22,496 bases of DNA from a virus. Location of the stretch: positions 1 to 22,496 of the IMG/VR virus record IMGVR_UViG_3300021136_000062; one strand, 5' to 3'. A program made the position numbers and the translations under genes. A model generated the notes under the pieces. That model ran no database searches. It was not told the origin of the DNA and worked only from the letters and a program-made list of their open reading frames with translations. Shown here in pieces: positions 364-18,090 of the stretch (position 1 is the stretch's first letter; the number at the start of each line of letters is the position of its first letter).

Positions 364-2490
364 TTAAAGAATTCTGAAAGCTAATTTTTTGTTGGAGGGC
401 TTATATGCTGATAATGCTGAATCAAATTCAAATTGAGAACTAGAAAAACTCTTTAAGTTAAAATTAGCTGTATTTTGTTTAACATTCATTGTTAAATATA
501 GTTGTTTAACTTCAGATTTACTCATTATATCAGTCAAAGCTTTTTTGTAAACTTTATCGCTATTTAAATAAGCCGCTACATAATTAGCTAATGGAGCAGT
601 TACAATTCCAAAATATCTTTGAGGAGACAAATCTCTCCATTTTAAAGGAAAGTTTGGAGATTTTTGTATTAATTTAAAGAAAGACCCAAATTTATTTTTT
701 ATAATACCTTCTTTTTGTTGATCAGTAGTGGCTGATTTTAATAAATTTTGCATATAAACATTTAAATTACCGTGATTAATATCTTGAGCAGGTATTTTTA
801 CGATCTGTGATAATTTTTCAAGTCCAGCTAAATGTTCTAAACCTTCAGATTTTATCATTTTTGCAACTTCAATAGGTCCTTGAATTGCATCGAATGATAA
901 AATAGTTTGAAATATTTTATATAATTTTTTTTGCCCTGGTGTAGTTAATTGATCTTTTTTAAGATTTTTTATAGTATCAGTTATAGTTGCTGCGCCACCT
1001 TTATTGTATTTAGAAGATACATTATATCCGTCTAATATAAAATCTGCTAAAGGATTTGCTTCATCTGCAGGGAAAATTAATCCTGATCCTGAATCTTTTA
1101 CACTGTTTAATAATACTATTGCTCCTAAGCACTCTCCAAAATCAGAACCAATCATTCCTAAATCTTGCGAGCTAACTTGTGAAATAGCTTTTTTAGTTCT
1201 TTCACTTAATTGAATAGGCTCATTATATTTTGTAATTTCTGATACATCTTTAAATCTACCTTTTGGTGATTTTGCTAATACATCATCTACTAAACTATCT
1301 AAAAGTTCTATTAATTTTGGATTATTTGTAACTGATGGTATATTATTTTTAATTGTAGTCGCTAATGTAGCTGCGCGTTTAAATGATTTAGAAGTAACAC
1401 CTAATTTATTTGGAGTTAAAGCTTTACCTTTTGTGCTTGCGCCTTCTTTCATAGTACTTACTACAAATATGGATTCTCCTTTCTTATAGTTATTAATATC
1501 TTTTACTAATTCAATTTTATAAGTAGGATAAGTACTAGATTTGGACTCACCTTGATTTTTTTGAAATTCAGTTATTTTAAAAGTTCCTTTAGGTAATAAT
1601 TTACTTAAAGTTTTTTCAATTACAGATTTTGTATCTGTTGATGTTTTAAAATCAGCTCTTAATACTGGACCTCTGTTACCTTTATTCTCTGTTGATACTT
1701 TAAATCCATCATCAGAAATTGCTTTTTGAATAGCTTTGTAAAGGGTTACTGTTTTTTCTGTGTTCTTTTTCATTTGATTTGTTTTTGGTTTAGAAGGTAA
1801 ATTTACTTCTTTTACCAATACCCTAATCATTTCTTGATCATTCACAGAAAATTCTTCATTGGTTATCAATAATAAATTTTTTAACATATTGATTTTCAAT
1901 GCTGATTCTTTTAACGATTCTTCACTTTCTGGAGCTGTTTCTTCTCCTGTTTCAGTGGTTTCTGTGCCTTCCTCACCTCCAGTTTCTGTAGTTTCTGCAC
2001 CACCTCCAAATCCACCACCGCCTCCAGTAGATCCTCCTCCAGTTTCTGGACGAGTTCCTTGTTCTGCTCCTTCTGGGCCTTTGCTTTTTAAAGGATTTCC
2101 AAACTTAAGAAGTCTAGCTATAGCTTCCATAGCTCTTTCTTTTATACCTATATTATTTAAATAGTATCTTTTTCCTGCTATATTTGCTTCATATATATTT
2201 TTCCCCATATATTTTATAAAGAAAAATTGACCATTGTGTAATACAATTTTAAATGTAGTTGGTTTTGGAGCAATAACAAAAATTGCTGTCAAATACTGTT
2301 TAAAATCATTGCTCATTAATTCAACTAATGTCTCTCTTAACCCATGATATTTACGTATAATAAATCCCATAGGATCCTCTTCAAATCCTTCAGGTTTTTT
2401 AGGTTTTTCATTTGGTTGCTTTTCAGGATCATTTGGATCTGCGTCTGCTTCCAATAATATTTTTAATATGTTATTATTATCTATCATCAT
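364..2490 (-). CDS. Large multidomain late protein with a PD-(D/E)XK-like core
   Basis: A 708-residue protein of unknown function. It has an N-terminal segment (NILKILLEADADP, residues 7-19), a compact domain at about 40-132, a low-complexity linker rich in Gly, Thr and Glu (146-190), then a long C-terminal region. Within the latter, F-G-E453-C-L-G, L-A-D483-F-I-L-D-G and V-S-S-K494 are spaced like the E...D...(S/E)xK active site of PD-(D/E)XK nucleases; K-A-L-T-P-N-K-L-G-V precedes it (residues 356-365). This fold assignment is inference from motif spacing, not a match I can confirm. There is no signal peptide or membrane segment. It is the last gene of a unit with the 174-aa gene and lysozyme, 16 bp after lysozyme. 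The start is ATGATG at 2490; the second Met is equally possible. Alternative: a virion structural or internal head protein without nuclease activity. Confidence 0.75.
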   Translation of the reverse strand: MMIDNNNILKILLEADADPNDPEKQPNEKPKKPEGFEEDPMGFIIRKYHGLRETLVELMSNDFKQYLTAIFVIAPKPTTFKIVLHNGQFFFIKYMGKNIYEANIAGKRYYLNNIGIKERAMEAIARLLKFGNPLKSKGPEGAEQGTRPETGGGSTGGGGGFGGGAETTETGGEEGTETTETGEETAPESEESLKESALKINMLKNLLLITNEEFSVNDQEMIRVLVKEVNLPSKPKTNQMKKNTEKTVTLYKAIQKAISDDGFKVSTENKGNRGPVLRADFKTSTDTKSVIEKTLSKLLPKGTFKITEFQKNQGESKSSTYPTYKIELVKDINNYKKGESIFVVSTMKEGASTKGKALTPNKLGVTSKSFKRAATLATTIKNNIPSVTNNPKLIELLDSLVDDVLAKSPKGRFKDVSEITKYNEPIQLSERTKKAISQVSSQDLGMIGSDFGECLGAIVLLNSVKDSGSGLIFPADEANPLADFILDGYNVSSKYNKGGAATITDTIKNLKKDQLTTPGQKKLYKIFQTILSFDAIQGPIEVAKMIKSEGLEHLAGLEKLSQIVKIPAQDINHGNLNVYMQNLLKSATTDQQKEGIIKNKFGSFFKLIQKSPNFPLKWRDLSPQRYFGIVTAPLANYVAAYLNSDKVYKKALTDIMSKSEVKQLYLTMNVKQNTANFNLKSFSSSQFEFDSALSAYKPSNKKLAFRIL
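1921..2055 (-). repeat. Low-complexity Gly/Thr/Glu-coding stretch
   Basis: This part of the 708-aa gene encodes a Gly-rich run followed by repeated E-T-T-E-T-G-(E/G)-E units (residues 146-190). Its DNA is built from repeated CCTCC and TTTCTG-type words on the plus strand and is visibly richer in G+C than its surroundings. It reads as a flexible interdomain linker and is a plausible site of replication slippage. Confidence 0.7.
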
Positions 2491-2506
2491 GGTATTAAAT
2501 TAACAA

Positions 2507-2977
2507 TTATTGTGTAAAATATAAATCAGCCTCTGCTATTCTTCTTCTTTCTAGTCCTGGGACTTCTTTACCTGATGCTCTATCCCATCTTAAAAATTGA
2601 TTTCTAATATCAGGATTATTTGGATTAGAATTAATTTCTTTTAAAAGAGTTGAACTTTCTAAAGCGCCTTCTCCTAAATTATACTCAAAACTAATTATAG
2701 CTCCCCATTGATTGGGAGTTAAATTAGCATGAACTATGTTTGGTAAATGAGAAGTTTTTACATTTACTTCCCACATAAGAAATTCAATTGCTTGATCTTC
2801 TGTAATTTTAGGATCTCCTACTTTTACATACTTACCTCCTAAATAAGTTGGAGGATATTGTATAGTACCATATCCTATAGTATCTACTCCAGGAGGATCT
2901 ATTAGATCATGATATGCATTTAAATAAAGACCTTCAAAAGACTTAATTAAATTAATGCAATTACTATTTGCTACCAT
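2507..2977 (-). CDS. Phage-type lysozyme (GH24 endolysin)
   Basis: A 156-residue muramidase of the T4 lysozyme/P22 gp19 family that cleaves the N-acetylmuramic acid to N-acetylglucosamine bond of peptidoglycan. The family pattern is clear: S-F-E15-G, then Asp (D24 or D27) and T33 in D-T-I-G-Y-G-T, matching the Glu-Asp-Thr catalytic set with a few extra residues in the loop. N-Q-W-G-A-I-I-S-F-E-Y-N-L-G (residues 88-101) and the C-terminal G-L-E-R-R-R-x-x-E also fit. The length is normal for the family. There is no signal peptide, so it would need a holin, or act from the particle. Its start lies 2 nt after the stop of the 174-aa gene. In T4 a second lysozyme is fused into gp5; here the gp5-like protein lacks one. 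Confidence 0.92.
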   Translation of the reverse strand: MVANSNCINLIKSFEGLYLNAYHDLIDPPGVDTIGYGTIQYPPTYLGGKYVKVGDPKITEDQAIEFLMWEVNVKTSHLPNIVHANLTPNQWGAIISFEYNLGEGALESSTLLKEINSNPNNPDIRNQFLRWDRASGKEVPGLERRRIAEADLYFTQ

Positions 2978-2979
2978 AA

Positions 2980-3504
2980 TTATTTATTTTTAGTATAACT
3001 GTTTTTAAATTTTTTCTTTCTCTTTCTTTTAATATTTTCAAAAATATTATCTAAACTCATATCATTATTATGTTCAGGTTCTTCTTCTGGCTCATTATTA
3101 TCTAAATAAAATCCATCTGCGGCTTCATCTAAAAATGTACCAGATTTAGTAATATGATCTACTATCCATGCTGGGATTTCTTCCCCGCTATGAACTTTTT
3201 CTAATAATTCATTTACATTATCTAAAATATGTTCTAATGTTTTTTTAACCATAAAAACGGTATCTTCACCTTCTTCTATATATCCACACTCTTGACACTT
3301 TCCTTCATACATTGCAGGAACTCCACATTCTTGGCACATTCCGTATTCTTGTTCTTCTCTATGAGGATCATAATCTTTCATTCCAATATGAACAGAATCT
3401 TCTTTTCTTTTAGGAAATTTAGCTACAATAGTATCTTCTATTTCACCAGGTTGATGACCAAATTCTTTAAGGAGGGCTAATTTTAATTTAGTACTAGTTT
3501 TCAT
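2980..3504 (-). CDS. Zinc-ribbon phage protein of unknown function
   Basis: A 174-residue protein. A four-cysteine zinc ribbon is formed by C57-Q-E-C60 and C70-Q-E-C73. It is followed by a helical region (about 83-135) with L-E-K-V-H-S-G-E-E-I-P-A-W-I-V-D-H-I-T-K, a pattern I recognise from small T4-like phage proteins (WVxxKIxKA). The tail is acidic and then very basic (KRKRKKKFK), which could bind DNA. The N-terminus K-L-A-L-L-K-E14-F-G carries the LxE segment discussed in the findings. It is the first gene of the unit with lysozyme and the 708-aa gene; an ATATTTATA motif ends 14 nt upstream of its ATG. Confidence 0.75.
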   Translation of the reverse strand: MKTSTKLKLALLKEFGHQPGEIEDTIVAKFPKRKEDSVHIGMKDYDPHREEQEYGMCQECGVPAMYEGKCQECGYIEEGEDTVFMVKKTLEHILDNVNELLEKVHSGEEIPAWIVDHITKSGTFLDEAADGFYLDNNEPEEEPEHNNDMSLDNIFENIKRKRKKKFKNSYTKNK

Positions 3505-3518
3505 GTTTATTTTATTAA

Positions 3519-3527
3519 TATAAATAT
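3519..3527 (-). promoter_or_regulatory. ATATTTATA motif, candidate late promoter
   Basis: Exact motif on the minus strand in the 30-bp gap between the 105-aa and 174-aa genes, with 14 nt to the ATG at 3504. It would drive the 174-aa, lysozyme and 708-aa genes. Confidence 0.55.
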
Positions 3528-3534
3528 TGTGATA

Positions 3535-3852
3535 TTACCATGCTCTACAGCTCCAATAATTAGCACGATCTCTAGGCCCTGGATTTTCGCAGTGGTGACG
3601 TGCTCTATAAGATTTTCTATGTTTCGGTAAATGTTTTTTTATTGCTACACCTTTTTGACCAAAATTAACTTTAACCACATTTCCTTTTGCATTTTTAACA
3701 TAGACAGATCTTTTTTTAGGACCATCAGGAGTAAGAAATGGTTTTCCTAAAGTAACAGTTTTACCATGATACTTTGCTTCTTGTAAAGAATTCCAATGTT
3801 TTTTGATATATTCATATAAACATTGAGGACAAAAATGATTAGTTTCAATCAT
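3535..3852 (-). CDS. Conserved small Cys/His phage protein
   Basis: A 105-residue basic protein. It has an N-terminal C8-P-Q-C11 pair and C-terminal R-H86-H87-C88 and W-S-C102, which together could hold a zinc ion. The middle stretch G-K-P-F-L-T-P-D-G-P-K-K-R-S-V-Y-V-K-N and the end R-A-R-H-H-C-x-N-P-G-P-R-x-x-A-x-Y-W-S-C belong to a domain I recognise as widespread in T4-like phages, with no known function. S-L-Q-E25-A-K, just before the conserved part, fits an LxE/A cleavage site. Its ATG overlaps the stop of the DUF3008-like gene by one base (TAATG), which indicates translational coupling. Confidence 0.75.
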   Translation of the reverse strand: MIETNHFCPQCLYEYIKKHWNSLQEAKYHGKTVTLGKPFLTPDGPKKRSVYVKNAKGNVVKVNFGQKGVAIKKHLPKHRKSYRARHHCENPGPRDRANYWSCRAW

Positions 3853-4466
3853 TATTTCTTTTTTTCTTCTTTTTTATGTTTTTTTGATCTTTCTACTCTT
3901 TCAAGTTTATCCATTAAATCATCTATTTGATGAGCTAAATGAGCAATATGTTCTTTGTGAGATCTAGCATTTTTAGGATCTTCTTTTGCTAAATCTACAT
4001 GATCTTTTCTTTTCTTTTCTAAAGAATCAATAGTATGAGTGATTTTTTTAGCAACATGATCTTTCTTTTTTTCTACCTCTTCTAATTTTTTAAGATGTTC
4101 ACCATGAAGTTTTGTAGCCGTTTTAAGTGCGTGTTCTCTGCTAGGATGTAAACTATGCACTTCTTCTGCCATTATAGAATGAGGAGCTAATCCTTTTAAA
4201 GGATCAATTTCTTTAATCATTCCTGCTACCGTACAACCTTCATGAGGATGAACAACAGCATGAATTTCTCCTATATGATTTTCATATTTAGGTTTTTTCT
4301 TTTTATTTGGAAGACCTTTATGCTTTGTAGAAGCAAAGTCTGTTGCTGATGTTTTTGTCATTGATTTTGCTAACTTTGCGACTTTAGGACTTGCGGGTTT
4401 TTCACCTTTTTGTGCGGCATGTACCATTCCCATTAGGCGTTGTTGAGCTTTTGATTTTGAAGGCAT
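3852..4466 (-). CDS. DUF3008-like protein with a charged coiled-coil extension
   Basis: A 204-residue protein. Residues 1 to about 55 (MPSKSKAQQRLMGMVHA... then D-F-A-S-T-K-H-K-G-L-P) match the small DUF3008 family found alone in many phages and bacteria; its function is not known. The rest is highly charged and Lys-, Glu- and His-rich, with residues 115-160 and 170-204 likely to form coiled coils. The fusion to a long coiled coil is unusual, because DUF3008 proteins are normally about 60 to 70 residues. It is the first gene of a two-gene unit with the 105-aa protein and is preceded by an ATATTTATA motif ending 15 nt before the ATG. Confidence 0.8.
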   Translation of the reverse strand: MPSKSKAQQRLMGMVHAAQKGEKPASPKVAKLAKSMTKTSATDFASTKHKGLPNKKKKPKYENHIGEIHAVVHPHEGCTVAGMIKEIDPLKGLAPHSIMAEEVHSLHPSREHALKTATKLHGEHLKKLEEVEKKKDHVAKKITHTIDSLEKKRKDHVDLAKEDPKNARSHKEHIAHLAHQIDDLMDKLERVERSKKHKKEEKKK

Positions 4467-4481
4467 CTCTTGAGATTTATT

Positions 4482-4490
4482 TATAAATAT
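4482..4490 (-). promoter_or_regulatory. ATATTTATA motif, candidate late promoter
   Basis: Minus-strand motif immediately after the stop of the 189-aa gene and 15 nt before the ATG at 4466. The extended sequence TATTTATAAATA also contains an exact T4-type TATAAATA in the gene's direction (4485 to 4478), the only gene-oriented upstream copy I noticed. Confidence 0.55.
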
Positions 4491-4491
4491 G

Positions 4492-5061
4492 TTATAATTT
4501 TACTTTCTTTTGTTCTTCTATCCATTGTTTAACTTCTTCATATATTTTACTTTTATTACCTTGTGACCAACTTTCTATCTCTCCTGCTTCTGATACAAAT
4601 GAATCTTTTTGATTTAACCAAGCTTCAATAGCTACTTCTAAATCATCTAATTCTGAATTTTTATTAGCGTTTCTTTGTTCACTAACATACTCTTCCCACT
4701 TTCCTTGTCTTTTGATTTCTCCTTCCATGTCTATGGTACAATCAAAGCATATTTTATGAATTCCGTACATTTTTTTGTTCAATTCGTCTGCTTTCATAGG
4801 TTTTTGACACTTAGGACAACATAGAGGGAATATTGCCAGACTCTTTAATCCATCAAGCTTTGTAATTGTTTGCTTTAACCCATTAGAGATTGTCCATGAG
4901 CGCCCATCTTCTTCCCAGATATCTCCCTCTTGATGATCTTGAGTCTTTTTTTCCCAACCAGCTAATACTTGAGTTTTATCACCTATTTTTTTGGTGATAA
5001 TATTTCTCATTCTTTGCACATCTTTCTTTGAAAACTCTCTTTTCAAAACTGTTTCTTTCAT
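4492..5061 (-). CDS. Conserved phage zinc-binding protein
   Basis: A 189-residue soluble protein with no known function. F-S-K-K-D-V-Q-R-M-R-N (residues 10-20) and G-D-I-W-E-E-D-G-R-S-W-T-I (46-58) form a conserved N-terminal part that I recognise from T4-like phages of marine type. A four-cysteine site follows: C82-P-K-C85 and C105-F-D-C108. The C-terminal half is an acidic helical domain ending in a coiled-coil-like helix. It starts 5 nt after the stop of the HExxH peptidase gene and belongs to the unit headed by the 756-aa gene. There is no signal peptide or membrane segment. Confidence 0.75.
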   Translation of the reverse strand: MKETVLKREFSKKDVQRMRNIITKKIGDKTQVLAGWEKKTQDHQEGDIWEEDGRSWTISNGLKQTITKLDGLKSLAIFPLCCPKCQKPMKADELNKKMYGIHKICFDCTIDMEGEIKRQGKWEEYVSEQRNANKNSELDDLEVAIEAWLNQKDSFVSEAGEIESWSQGNKSKIYEEVKQWIEEQKKVKL

Positions 5062-5066
5062 ATTCT

Positions 5067-5465
5067 TTATTTTATTAATTCAGCAAAGATATTTTTTTTA
5101 ACCCCTTCGTATATTAGTTCATTTTTCTTACCAAATTCTCTCATTAATATTCCAGCCACTATATTAGCTTCATCTTCTACATCAGATCCAGTTTCTCCTG
5201 ACTTAGCGTATAATAATCCTAATTCATTTTGTCTATGATGTGTTAATTCATGACCTAAAGTACGTAAAGAATCTGCTAAATTTCTATTTGCAATATACAT
5301 TACTATTGAATTTTTAGCATCTGTATATTCTCCAAAACTGTGTCTAGCTAATACCCAACTTTTATCATCTATAAAAGTTATTTTAGGAAGGTTTTCTATC
5401 TTTAAATGATAAGATGCAAAATCTATAAAATCTTCTATTAAATTTATTCTTTCTTGAGTAGTCAT
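5067..5465 (-). CDS. Small HExxH metallopeptidase-like protein
   Basis: A 132-residue protein with the zinc-protease signature G-H72-E73-L-T-H76-H in a helix, followed 20 residues later by E97-D-E99-A-N-I-V-A-G, which can supply the third ligand (E97 or E99), as in gluzincins. The core is small, with no propeptide or signal sequence. The family is recurrent in T4-like phages, but its substrate is not known to me. T4's own prohead protease is a serine enzyme of a different fold, so this is not its obvious equivalent. The ATG overlaps the stop of the 756-aa gene by one base (TAATG), so the two products are probably made together. Confidence 0.8.
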   Translation of the reverse strand: MTTQERINLIEDFIDFASYHLKIENLPKITFIDDKSWVLARHSFGEYTDAKNSIVMYIANRNLADSLRTLGHELTHHRQNELGLLYAKSGETGSDVEDEANIVAGILMREFGKKNELIYEGVKKNIFAELIK

Positions 5466-7735
5466 TATCTTGTAAATGATGTTTCTAATCCTCTAACTAT
5501 AAAGGATCCAGTTATTTTAAATGGTTCGTTCGCAATTGCTTTATCTCTTACAACTATGCCCTCTTGTTTATCAACCGGACCTAAAGGAGAATTCATAGAT
5601 TTTAGTAATGAATCTCCCAATTCCATAGTAGCTTCATAAATTACAAAAGAATCTATAGCAACTTTTTGGTCTTTAGGATCCGCAATCAAATCAGTTATAG
5701 GTGTTCCTTTTTTAACAGCTAAAAATACTTGTTTACTTAATGCGTCTACTGTTTTACCGTCTTTTAATTTTAATTTAAGACCTTTTGTATTATTAGCTTC
5801 ACTTAACCACTGTTTAAGAGATTTAGTTTGCTTATTTTTTCCATCAATATTAACAGTATAATTTTTAGAAAGAGCTAATCCATAGTTTGGAGTTTTTTCT
5901 AATTTAGCAGGAATTGAAGATAGTATTTCGAATCCGTATTTTTTAGCTACTGGTTGCATTTTAGTAATCATAGACTCTAAAACATCTTTAGAGTATGGAA
6001 TTTCATGAGTTGATCTTGATTTTTTTCCTGGATTTTGAGCTATTTCTAATAGTCCATGGATAGCTAAAAAGTTTTTACCATAATCTTGCACATTTGTCTT
6101 GCCTTCAACATATTCTATATTAAGCATTATATTAGGATTTTTAATCATTCCTAATTTAGCTAAATCATCTTTTATTAATGGAAGAGACTTATTAAAAATA
6201 TCTAATACATTACCTCCAACTTTAATCATTCCATGTCCAGGTATATCGAATCTTGCAGGAAGATCAGCTTTTGTAACTCCTTTTACATCTAATTCTTTAG
6301 ATGATCCTCTATCAATTACGAATTCTCTTTTTCCATCTATATTACCGAGTCTTATTGAAGCATTTACGCCGTCTATTTTTACTGGTGCGGGATTTTTTGT
6401 TAAGAATTTTGCAGTTTGTTCAAATACTGATAATAAATCATTACCGGTTTTAACTCTATCTAGATCGAATGGATGGGCCATATGACCACCAGCTCCTCCT
6501 TCTCTTAATAGCAATCTAAGCAAAGATTCATTTAAATTAGAAACTTTTGGTTTTCCGTATAATCTTTTTACGATAGTTTTATCTACTTTAGATAATTTTC
6601 TTTTATAATATCCATCATCCATCATTTCTAATCCTTTATTTCCGGCTATAGAATTTATTATTTTTGGATCTGTAATTACTGGTACATCGGATTTTGAGAG
6701 AATATCTTCCATTTTCATGGAAGCTTCTAAAAACCATCCTGGGGTTTTTAATAACCTAAATACTTGTTTTAATAAATCTTTTTTTGCTTCTTTTTTATCA
6801 TTAGTTCCAAGTAAAGCTATTTTATTTCCAAACTCAGTTGGTTTGTATATTATAAATGCATCAGGTATACCATCGTTATCCACGTCTTCTATAGAAACTG
6901 CTTTATACTTACTTCTTAATTCATTGTAGTCTGATGCTGAAAAATCCAATCCATTTTTTGCGTAAGTATTTGAGTACATATCCCAAATAACTTTCATATC
7001 TTCATCTTCTAAAGAACTTAGATCATAGTCTTTCCAAACTCTATCTTTTAAATCGAATTTCTCCTCTAAATCGTGTTCTTTTAATAGATTTTTAAAAATA
7101 GAACTTAGTATAAAAGTTTCTTTTAAAGGTTGACTAGAAAATTTTTGTTTCATTAATTTTCCTAATTTTTCATCCCACCATCCAAATATTCCCTCAAAAT
7201 TCTTTTTATATTGTTCTGTAGTAGTAGGAGTAGAAAGAGCTTTTCTTATATTTGTACCACTCATTTCTCCGACTCCAGGTATATCATAAGATTTATGAGG
7301 AGCCACTACCAAATATCCATGTTCTGTGTATGGTTTTAAAGTAGTTTCATCATCGTATTTTCTAAAATATGAATCTTTTCCTGATTTATTTACCCCAATG
7401 GTGAATCTAGGATCTTCTTTCATATCCTTTTCTCCTACCATAAACACTACGGCAGTAGTTTTTGGATCATATTTAGAAGTTATTTCTGCTGATTGATAGG
7501 GATTTTTTACTTGAACTACTTGATTTCCAAATCCATATTTAGATATGATTGCTTTTTTTTCTTGAAAGTTTAATGGACTCTTTGGAGGATCTACTTTATC
7601 TGTGGTTGCTATAAATGTATCTGCTGAACCAAATTTTGACTCTAACCATTTAAATGCCGCTGCATGATGCTTAGAAAATGGTTGAAATCTTCCTGGAAAT
7701 ACGGCTATAACTGTTTTTATCACATTAAATTCCAT
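5465..7735 (-). CDS. Three-domain protein: HIGH nucleotidyltransferase, unknown middle domain, ligase-like domain
   Basis: A 756-residue protein. Residues 5-200 form a NadM/cytidylyltransferase-type domain: G15-R-F-Q-P-F-S-K-H23-H24 (HxGH-like) and S159-G-T-N-I-R164 (the ISSTxIR-type motif). Residues 221-400 are an uncharacterised domain with D-V-D-N-D-G-I-P-D (284-292), like a calcium-binding DxDxDG loop, and possibly a GNAT-like fold. Residues 413-756 resemble nucleotidyl-lysine ligases: K453-I-D-G456 (motif I), L-N-I-E541-Y-V-E-G-K-T-N-V (motif III-like), E725-G-I-V-V-R730 (motif IV) and F-K740-I-T-G (motif V-like). G-A-G-G-H-M-A-H-P-F opens this domain; from memory it may be the phage family DUF6267. 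Two L-L-x-K/R-E-type segments (to E220 and E412) separate the domains. It heads a unit with the peptidase and the 189-aa gene. The first domain is a firm call, the ligase reading moderate, the middle domain weak. Confidence 0.82.
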   Translation of the reverse strand: MEFNVIKTVIAVFPGRFQPFSKHHAAAFKWLESKFGSADTFIATTDKVDPPKSPLNFQEKKAIISKYGFGNQVVQVKNPYQSAEITSKYDPKTTAVVFMVGEKDMKEDPRFTIGVNKSGKDSYFRKYDDETTLKPYTEHGYLVVAPHKSYDIPGVGEMSGTNIRKALSTPTTTEQYKKNFEGIFGWWDEKLGKLMKQKFSSQPLKETFILSSIFKNLLKEHDLEEKFDLKDRVWKDYDLSSLEDEDMKVIWDMYSNTYAKNGLDFSASDYNELRSKYKAVSIEDVDNDGIPDAFIIYKPTEFGNKIALLGTNDKKEAKKDLLKQVFRLLKTPGWFLEASMKMEDILSKSDVPVITDPKIINSIAGNKGLEMMDDGYYKRKLSKVDKTIVKRLYGKPKVSNLNESLLRLLLREGGAGGHMAHPFDLDRVKTGNDLLSVFEQTAKFLTKNPAPVKIDGVNASIRLGNIDGKREFVIDRGSSKELDVKGVTKADLPARFDIPGHGMIKVGGNVLDIFNKSLPLIKDDLAKLGMIKNPNIMLNIEYVEGKTNVQDYGKNFLAIHGLLEIAQNPGKKSRSTHEIPYSKDVLESMITKMQPVAKKYGFEILSSIPAKLEKTPNYGLALSKNYTVNIDGKNKQTKSLKQWLSEANNTKGLKLKLKDGKTVDALSKQVFLAVKKGTPITDLIADPKDQKVAIDSFVIYEATMELGDSLLKSMNSPLGPVDKQEGIVVRDKAIANEPFKITGSFIVRGLETSFTR

Positions 7736-16248: not shown

Positions 16249-18090
16249 ATGGCAGGAGGAATATTTGAAGGAGCAATCAAGTCTGCTAATGAAACAATAG
16301 ACACGATTTATTCGAATATTGACACTGTGTTTAATGGTACTCAAACCTTATCTCCTGGTGAATTAAAGACAGCAGGAATTAATGAGAGAATTAAGGATAT
16401 TGGAGTTTTAGGCGTGATTAATTTACTAGCTTCAGTAGATCTTTGTTCTATTTTAGCGTATGAAGCAAATTTATTATCTAATATACAAGGGTATAAATTT
16501 GATCCAAACAATCCTCCCAATAAACAACAATTCCCTTCAGTAATTACTCAAAAGGGTTGGTTAATTCAAAAGGCCGCTTACGAAATTCAATTAGAAATAG
16601 ATAACTATAATGCCGCAAATGGACAAGAAGTTAATATGTCAGATCTAATTGCTTTAATCGGAGATGTAGTAATAAGATTAAAAAATTTAAATGATCCAAA
16701 AAGTCAAGCAAATATAGTAGATCCTACTATTACTACAGCATTTCCAACTTTAAATGTAATTAATATATTTGTAAGTAGTGCTATTATTTTTTTAAACACA
16801 TATGTAACCGCAGTTAATATATCAAATGAAGATTTAAATACAGTTAGTATAAATAGTTTAAAAAATAAAACTTCTGTAGGAGGAATACAACTTACTTCTA
16901 ATACTGATCTTAAAAAAGTTTTAGTTTTTTTAAATAATATAAGAACAACGTGCGTTAGAATACAGGCTATAAACGTAAAAAATCCTCAAAGTGCAATAGC
17001 GTCTGCAGCATTAGCTGAAGCCGCTGTATTAACTAATTCTTTAGTTCAGGCTCAATTAGCACAATTAAACAGCGTTTTAGGCAATTCTCTAACTAAATTA
17101 GTACCGAGTTTACAAAATATACAGCAACAATGTGTTTCAATAGAGAGGTTTTGTAGTATGATATTATCTACTATAAGAACTTGTCAAACCTATGTAAATA
17201 TAGCAGCAGGTTTAGTTAAAGTTTTTTCTACCATTGTTTCTTTTTTAGGTAAACTTCCAATACCAAATGAATTTACAATAGTTGGTATTACAACTACTGT
17301 AGCAGGCGCTGCAGCAAAAATAAATTCTTTTTTAGATAAGATTTTATTAGATATAGCTGCATTAAATGATTTTTTATCATTGATGGTAAATTTAGTTTCA
17401 AGCATTTCAGGAGATTTAAATCAAGTAGTTCAAAGTTTGAATATTATTATAATTAATCTTGAATCTTGCCAAAATGCGCCTACTGGACTAGTTGATAGTT
17501 TAAAAGCTACGTTAGTTCATTTAAATGGAGACTCTACTGCTCAAATACCCACAATAGGATTAATTGGTCAATTAAATAATTTTGTAAAAAATAGTCAAAA
17601 AAAGAAAAATACTGCAAATACTACATTTGGTGGATATACTATTCAAATTATATCTGAACAATTATTAAATCCTAATGTAAAAATATTTAGAAGATATGGG
17701 ATTGCTCTTGATTCTAATGGATTTGAAGTAGTACATTCTACTCCTACATATGCTTCCAATGACAATATTATAATAGAAGAAGTTCAACTTTTATTAGAAT
17801 CTAAAAAACTTGTGCAAATACCAAATTCATCTTTAAGTAGAGATCAATTAGCAACTATTCAAGAAGCTTTATCTTACATAGAAGATAATACACAATCATT
17901 AGATTTCTTAAGTAATATAGATACTCAAGTAGATCCTCCTGATAATGAGGATGAAGATGTAGGACTTGGATTAAACGCATTTATGAATAAGCAAAAAGGC
18001 GGAAAAGCTCTTAGAAGACGTATGAGAAAGGCAATGGCACAAGCGACTGCACAACTTCAACAAAATCTAATGTCAGCAAATAAAGGATAA
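16249..18090 (+). CDS. Large phage structural protein, baseplate-associated
   Basis: A 613-residue, Asn-, Ile- and Leu-rich, mostly helical protein. Long amphipathic stretches (about 170-310 and 340-405) resemble packed coils. A beta-rich segment at 459-515 (F-G-G-Y-T-I-Q-I-I, R-R-Y-G-I-A-L-D-S-N-G, then N-I-I-I-E-E-V-Q-L-L-L) is the conserved core I recognise in structural proteins of T4-like phages next to gp25. The C-terminus is basic and helical (about 578-613). It starts 2 nt after the spike gene, well inside the baseplate module. A precise role, for example in the hub or as a wedge-to-tube link, cannot be assigned. The hydrophobic stretch at 313-356 is not long or clean enough to call a membrane segment. 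Confidence 0.7.
   Translation: MAGGIFEGAIKSANETIDTIYSNIDTVFNGTQTLSPGELKTAGINERIKDIGVLGVINLLASVDLCSILAYEANLLSNIQGYKFDPNNPPNKQQFPSVITQKGWLIQKAAYEIQLEIDNYNAANGQEVNMSDLIALIGDVVIRLKNLNDPKSQANIVDPTITTAFPTLNVINIFVSSAIIFLNTYVTAVNISNEDLNTVSINSLKNKTSVGGIQLTSNTDLKKVLVFLNNIRTTCVRIQAINVKNPQSAIASAALAEAAVLTNSLVQAQLAQLNSVLGNSLTKLVPSLQNIQQQCVSIERFCSMILSTIRTCQTYVNIAAGLVKVFSTIVSFLGKLPIPNEFTIVGITTTVAGAAAKINSFLDKILLDIAALNDFLSLMVNLVSSISGDLNQVVQSLNIIIINLESCQNAPTGLVDSLKATLVHLNGDSTAQIPTIGLIGQLNNFVKNSQKKKNTANTTFGGYTIQIISEQLLNPNVKIFRRYGIALDSNGFEVVHSTPTYASNDNIIIEEVQLLLESKKLVQIPNSSLSRDQLATIQEALSYIEDNTQSLDFLSNIDTQVDPPDNEDEDVGLGLNAFMNKQKGGKALRRRMRKAMAQATAQLQQNLMSANKG

Follow-up and report, generated by a model that had tools for sequence, protein, structure and literature searches.

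The window analyzed here is a 22,496-base IMG/VR fragment of a T4-like phage (IMGVR_UViG_3300021136_000062), in which a gp47/gp46 fusion, a gp61-type primase, and homologues of the baseplate proteins gp25 and gp6 are recognizable. The subject of the analysis is a cluster of eight minus-strand genes at positions 364–7735. This cluster probably encodes T4-like head cargo, and its 756-residue product would be a cargo polyprotein that is targeted to the head, cut by a gp21-type protease, and injected. A sequence-only reading of the window had proposed this on the basis of a short amphipathic segment ending in Glu (here, the LLxE segment) that recurs directly ahead of conserved domains. The proposal is backed by conserved sites, by the protease and the capsid site of related phages, and by homologues found in virions; it finds no such backing in the genes for the 189-residue protein, the 132-residue protein, and the lysozyme, in which no N-terminal signal was seen.

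Domain organization of the 756-residue protein

The features of the 756-residue protein are as follows.

5465..7735, minus strand: 756-residue polyprotein, nucleotidyltransferase–GNAT–ligase-fold, with two LLxE segments as joints (open reading frame; homologous architectures in 80 IMG/VR loci)
7121..7735, minus strand: domain 1, residues 1–205, NMNAT/cytidylyltransferase-like nucleotidyltransferase of the HIGH superfamily (phrog_395, E 1.4e-8; PF01467 at 18 bits, below cut-off; weak PDB matches to PPAT/NMNAT)
7076..7102, minus strand: segment 1, SIFKNLLKE, residues 212–220, predicted cut before H221 (profile rank 2 of 748)
6527..7075, minus strand: domain 2, residues 221–403, GNAT acetyltransferase fold (AlphaFold2 predicted local distance difference test [pLDDT] 79, ends disordered; best Foldseek PDB match E 2.1e-4, probability 1.00, acetyltransferases)
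6500..6526, minus strand: segment 2, SLLRLLLRE, residues 404–412, predicted cut before G413 (profile rank 1 of 748; Glu before the cut in 49 of 51 relatives)
5468..6499, minus strand: domain 3, residues 413–756, divergent ATP-dependent ligase/nucleotidyltransferase fold with KxDG and EGxVxR (motifs; AlphaFold2 pLDDT 90.4; Foldseek)

That this chain combines three enzymes, as the sequence-only reading had it, is supported by phrog_395 for the first domain, by Foldseek matches to acetyltransferases for the second, and by weak Foldseek matches to ligases for the third. Domain 1 resembles an NMNAT-type nucleotidyltransferase, domain 2 a GNAT acetyltransferase, and domain 3 a divergent enzyme of the ATP-ligase fold. 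The PDB matches of domain 3 are weak, and many of them are RNA or DNA ligases; a profile of the domain gave only chance-level matches against PDB sequences. Across 39 aligned sequences, K41, D43, G44, E313, G314, V316, and K328, which belong to motif I (KxDG), motif IV (EGxVxR), and the motif V lysine, are invariant, and R318 is conserved in at least 90%. Over motif I and its surroundings the ligase domain aligns weakly with DUF6267 (probability 5.8%, E 0.0065); this suggests a homology that we do not claim. Residues 1–4 of domain 3, right after the Glu, are predicted to be disordered, yet all 39 aligned relatives have the GG found there, a combination more in keeping with external recognition than with a structural role. 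No peptidase domain was recognized inside the chain with Pfam or PHROGs; one is encoded by the adjoining gene.

Two amphipathic joints akin to the N-terminal capsid-targeting peptides of neighboring gene products would carry the chain into the core of the prohead. A prohead protease of the gp21 family, which would also trim gp23, would then cut after (L/I/V)xE, and the three freed enzymes would remain in the head and later enter the host alongside the DNA. The parts of this scheme differ in strength. The signal for loading into the head is well supported, and several independent lines point to packaging. Separation by gp21 in the prohead is probable, given the conservation of the sites, their predicted accessibility, and a fitting protease. 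Targeting by the internal segments is what we infer from their likeness to N-terminal tags, and injection with the DNA would follow the analogy of T4 Alt. The particle thus probably carries a ready-cut enzyme kit to the next cell. What the enzymes might do there (NAD supply, acetylation of host proteins, sealing or nick repair of RNA or DNA) we can only guess from the enzyme types. We consider it somewhat likely that several T4-like lineages use internal targeting segments that serve for addressing and for cutting alike, whereby a fused enzyme kit is packaged and then separated by the phage's own prohead protease.

Position and conservation of the LLxE segments

Direct reading of the translations located all five segments at the residues named in the sequence-only reading: SIFKNLLKE/H221 and SLLRLLLRE/G413 in the 756-residue protein, KLALLKE/F15 in the 174-residue protein, NILKILLE/A15 in the 708-residue protein, and SLQE/A26 in the 105-residue protein. 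Its interval of 2980–7735 contains the 756-, 174-, and 105-residue genes; the 708-residue gene lies outside, at 364–2490 on the minus strand.

The mere presence of [LI]xE means nothing because the tripeptide is common. In these proteomes it occurs at 1.27% of residues. The 756-residue protein contains 8 copies against 9.6 expected, so that a bare count, not being above chance, was discarded as evidence. The position and conservation of the segments carry the signal. An unsupervised motif search was run on N-termini taken from the window and ten related contigs (508 proteins after dereplication, with polyproteins excluded). It returned a KLKxLLKE-like motif with a likelihood of 323, compared with 192–216 in four internal-segment controls that contained fewer sequences. 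A profile was trained on 49 N-terminal segments, all from genes outside the polyprotein family, in the window and its relatives. Among the 748 windows of the 756-residue protein, this profile ranked residues 404–412 first and 212–220 second, with tail fractions of 5.8e-5 and 8.4e-5, respectively, of 154,890 internal windows. In the long marine polyproteins, the junctions were not cleanly recovered by the profile scan because the segment type differs.

The sequence-only reading also expected the LxE segment to be kept while the flanking linker varies, and this is what alignment of 51 non-redundant relatives revealed. The residue before the ligase domain (P1) is Glu in 49 of them; P3 is hydrophobic in all 51 (35 Leu, 13 Ile, and 3 Val), P4 in 88%, and P8 in 66%. 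Most of the linker is variable, and of the 30 upstream positions none except P1, P3, and P4 has a residue above 46%. The two exceptions are L036, where an HNH-like insertion separates LLTEGGAA from GGAAGHMAHPFD and removal of the insertion would restore LLTE/GGAAGHM, and L169, which starts with M-GGAAGHM and has the ligase ahead of the nucleotidyltransferase. L062, which is close to L061 and lies outside the 51, has Asp at P1 (LISD/GG).

In L036–L038 the in-frame HNH-like insertion coincides exactly with the conserved LLTE/GGAA junction and is flanked on either side by GGAA; no Rfam intron was found in L036.

The domains are combined in a modular way. Among the first loci collected, 53 proteins have the nucleotidyltransferase and ligase without GNAT, 5 have GNAT between them, and 23 gave a match in the ligase part only. 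Stand-alone ligase relatives usually bear an N-terminal tag of their own (e.g., MNFSEYIELINE/GGAAGHM), and the GNAT domain occurs in several unrelated upstream contexts, each time closely preceded by a hydrophobic-x-E. In long marine forms there are further domains, among them superoxide dismutase, plastocyanin, and DUF192; the marine phage polyprotein L067, for example, has a superoxide dismutase (residues 342–543, E 6.7e-42) and a plastocyanin-like domain (residues 665–746, E 1.7e-15).

Prohead protease and capsid protein in related contigs

Cutting by gp21 presupposes a protease of this type and a matching site in the capsid protein, as the sequence-only reading had pointed out, and both were found in relatives. 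Of 34 related contigs, 15 encode a gp21-type protease (S77). G002 and G003, which share 98% identity with the window in the polyprotein, are among these 15; in the 22.5-kb window itself, no gp21-family protease was seen. The gp23 capsid protein is present in 14 of the 34, again including G002 and G003. In 11 contigs gp23 reads Q-A-[KR]-Q-L-[IV]-x-E (e.g., QAKQLIVE/T) at a place comparable to the T4 cut, so that P3 of the predicted site is I or V rather than L or I only. In G003 the genes follow in the order polyprotein, cluster, terminase and portal-type genes, protease, scaffold-type gene, and gp23; in the relatives the cluster is placed between the gp46/47–primase genes and the terminase–portal–gp21–gp22–gp23 genes.

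The C-termini of gp22-like scaffold proteins (RMQQLAGIKK; in G003, G005, G012, G023, and gp83 of Flavobacterium phage immuto) resemble the N-termini of small neighboring open reading frames (KRMQQLAGIIKES, RRMQKLAGIITES; G012, 16384–16704). To judge from this likeness, cargo tags may mimic the scaffold tail.

Related proteins in cultured phages and virions

Microcystis phage Mel-JY01 encodes a 639-residue protein in which MGKLINILLSE is followed by a nucleotidyltransferase and by NNNIIAE/GGLGGHMNHPFD before the ligase domain; the annotation of the same phage includes a prohead protease and a capsid protein (gp23). Phage immuto, with a similar gene order, has a 907-residue multidomain protein at the equivalent place, and peptidase-like segments occur in its gp88.

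The virion data concern homologues of the cluster proteins: those of NMNAT and of the 204-residue DUF3008 protein are published virion proteins of cyanophages. NMNAT has been detected in virions of S-CREM2 and S-SCSM1 (PMC10665884, PMC9602691), and the N-termini of these proteins, MKNFSSFLTE/A and MKSFLQFLKE/A, respectively, stand beside that of T4 IPIII, MKTYQEFIAE/A, which has an annotated 10-residue leader in X04567. Over 59 residues, the N-terminus of the 204-residue protein shares 68% identity with gp93 of S-SCSM1, an annotated virion protein. No homology was found between the C-terminal region of the 708-residue protein and S-SCSM1 gp90. A strict T4-like tag picks out five proteins in S-CREM2 (an S-adenosylmethionine hydrolase, an APH-like kinase, a cytidylyltransferase, and two unknowns), all five of which are in the published virion proteome; the p value of 6.5e-4 is only indicative because the pattern was defined after looking.

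Tag-like sequences were also noticed elsewhere. S-CREM2 (OR473000) gp12 (L279, 7704–10313), which is annotated as Cas9, reported in virions, and without a Pfam match, has LRFASFMAE/A near its N-terminus and ends in TFRDFLN, both tag-like. Tag-like C-termini occur in S-SCSM1 gp93 (L300, 36627–36836), which ends in RTFKEFLEYIE, and in the G012 counterpart of the 132-residue protein (3448–3858), which ends in KLGNLLKEIKRK. On a contig of 410 kb from the bin of a rumen bacterium (G035:C82; ONIZ01000001.1, loci L256–L275), 89 of 574 open reading frames have a T4-like N-terminal tag, compared with 14 of 2,268 internal Met positions. A leader, EKFRLSKDNL, is common to 48 open reading frames, mostly after MKKLNQFITE; the one tested matched DUF285 (E 2.2e-79).

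The rest of the gene cluster

The remaining genes of the cluster are listed below. Gene calls were simple and based on open reading frames rather than on a trained gene finder, and some start sites may be wrong.

5067..5465, minus strand: zincin-like metallopeptidase (HELTHH), 132 residues; one-base overlap with the polyprotein gene (sequence motif; no Pfam match)
4492..5061, minus strand: 189-residue cluster protein; no targeting peptide seen (neighbor kept in G003, G005, and G012)
3852..4466, minus strand: DUF3008 protein, 204 residues (PF11450; N-terminal part resembles S-SCSM1 gp93)
3535..3852, minus strand: 105-residue protein; SLQE/A26 ahead of a conserved domain (DNA 3778–3789; phrog_7595)
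2980..3504, minus strand: 174-residue protein; putative N-terminal targeting peptide MKTSTKLKLALLKE/F (DNA 3463–3504), KLALLKE/F15 (similar N-termini in G003, G005, and G006)
2507..2977, minus strand: phage lysozyme within the cluster; no targeting peptide (PF00959, E 5.8e-30)
364..2490, minus strand: 708-residue protein; N-terminal NNNILKILLE/A15 (DNA 2449–2490) and a second LxE-bounded segment between two regions (DNA ~1777–1920; N-terminus and junction conserved)

An N-terminal peptide of about 10–20 residues ending in (L/I)xE is present in the 174- and 708-residue proteins. In the 756-residue protein the segments are internal, which makes it a variant and no plain member of the T4-type targeted head cargo. 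The sequence of the 708-residue protein shows what appears to be the same logic as the polyprotein, namely a tag plus an LxE-bounded internal segment; both are kept in G003, G005, G006, G012, and G013 despite differing linkers. Homologues of the 105-residue protein read QLEE/AEYHG in G012 and MKKFKQYIDE...LTE/AEYQG in C48C1. Pfam, PHROGs, and NCBIfam gave no names for the 708- and 174-residue proteins, and a megablast search of INPHARED with the window gave no match.

Alternative explanations

Several points weigh against a targeted and processed polyprotein. T4 tags have been characterized as N-terminal, and we know of no test of internal tags; domain 1 of the 756-residue protein has no N-terminal targeting peptide. 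The training set of 49 N-termini is impure and includes probable non-cargo genes (e.g., terminase and baseplate genes). The segment of the marine clade differs (LFSKEWW...ILxE) and scores poorly, and the junction ranks first in only 33 of the proteins scored. No tag was seen on three DUF6267-type ligase-like genes of cyanophages, the homology of which rests on a weak alignment, although the ligase-like genes of C48C1 and HTVC008M do carry an N-terminal signal. Finally, the authors of both cyanophage studies caution that such proteins, NMNAT included, could be co-purified contaminants (PMC10665884, PMC9602691).

If the chain were packaged through its segments and remained uncut, or if the segments were leftovers of gene fusion, a single multifunctional enzyme would be present in the virion or after entry. 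Internal cutting by gp21 is indeed undocumented for these proteins, and the Asp at P1 of L062 is like a change in T4 IPIII that blocks processing and not targeting (PMC9026906). However, a fossil would not be expected to hold Glu at P1 and a hydrophobic P3 with such constancy while the linker diverges, and the predicted disorder beside the junctions suggests accessibility; we regard an uncut chain as unlikely. That a zincin metallopeptidase, which has its own gene in this cluster and is embedded in the immuto protein, separates the chain instead of gp21 appears quite improbable. Its gene directly adjoins that of the polyprotein, immuto gp88 has peptidase-like segments, and self-processing by such domains has been proposed by Iyer et al. 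2017 (PMC5512222), but the junction fits the (L/I)xE rule of gp21 and resembles the gp23 site of the same phages, and segments of the same type occur at the N-termini of unrelated genes.

The enzymes could also act in the cytoplasm during replication, in NAD metabolism and RNA repair, with the LLxE segments as ordinary linker helices. NMNAT and ligase activities would suit nucleotide and RNA metabolism, and the three untagged cyanophage genes agree with such a role. We give this little credence, since homologous NMNATs with T4-like tags occur in virions of two cyanophages and the cluster is located next to the head genes in relatives. It is hardly credible that the Glu is conserved by chance or because the ligase domain requires it structurally: [LI]xE is frequent, but the probability for a fixed site under independence is 1.7e-87 (overstated, since relatives share ancestry), and the residues beside the Glu are predicted to be disordered.

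Comparison with known systems

Targeting sequences of T4, processing by gp21, and polyvalent proteins have all been described before. A literature search, with subscription journals largely outside its coverage, found no account of polyprotein head cargo with internal targeting and cleavage segments. If the targeted and processed polyprotein is real, T4-like head cargo would be readable from sequence, and the tag would predict which uncharacterized phage proteins are delivered to the host together with the DNA. Such a polyprotein would also be a bacterial-virus counterpart of polyprotein processing, run by the capsid-maturation protease, and would offer natural designs for putting several enzymes into one phage head.

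Polyvalent proteins are likewise multidomain enzymes with GNAT, Pol-beta nucleotidyltransferase, and metallopeptidase domains, are predicted to be injected, and have been likened to polyproteins (Iyer et al. 2017, PMC5512222). They have at least two enzymatic domains in one phage chain, and the 756-residue protein has three. Release by embedded peptidases was proposed for some of them and does not define all (PMC5512222), whereas the joints described here match the rule of the prohead protease and no peptidase was seen within the chain. In the ejection proteins of phiKZ and SPN3US, head-cargo propeptides are likewise cleaved by a gp21 homologue, in some cases at more than one site (PMC5694885); the cuts there remove propeptides, and no account was found in which one chain yields several separate enzymes. 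The virion NMNAT/cytidylyltransferases of cyanophages (S-CREM2 gp154 and S-SCSM1 gp91) share the enzyme type, the T4-like N-terminal tag, and detection in virions by mass spectrometry, but are stand-alone genes for which internal tags are not reported. T4 IPI–III and Alt have in common with the present cluster the short amphipathic peptide ending in (L/I)xE, the gp21-family protease, the matching gp23 site, and an enzyme (Alt) among the cargo (PMC9026906). The T4 tags are N-terminal and one per protein (Alt also has a C-terminal cut), whereas here the putative tags also lie between fused enzymes.

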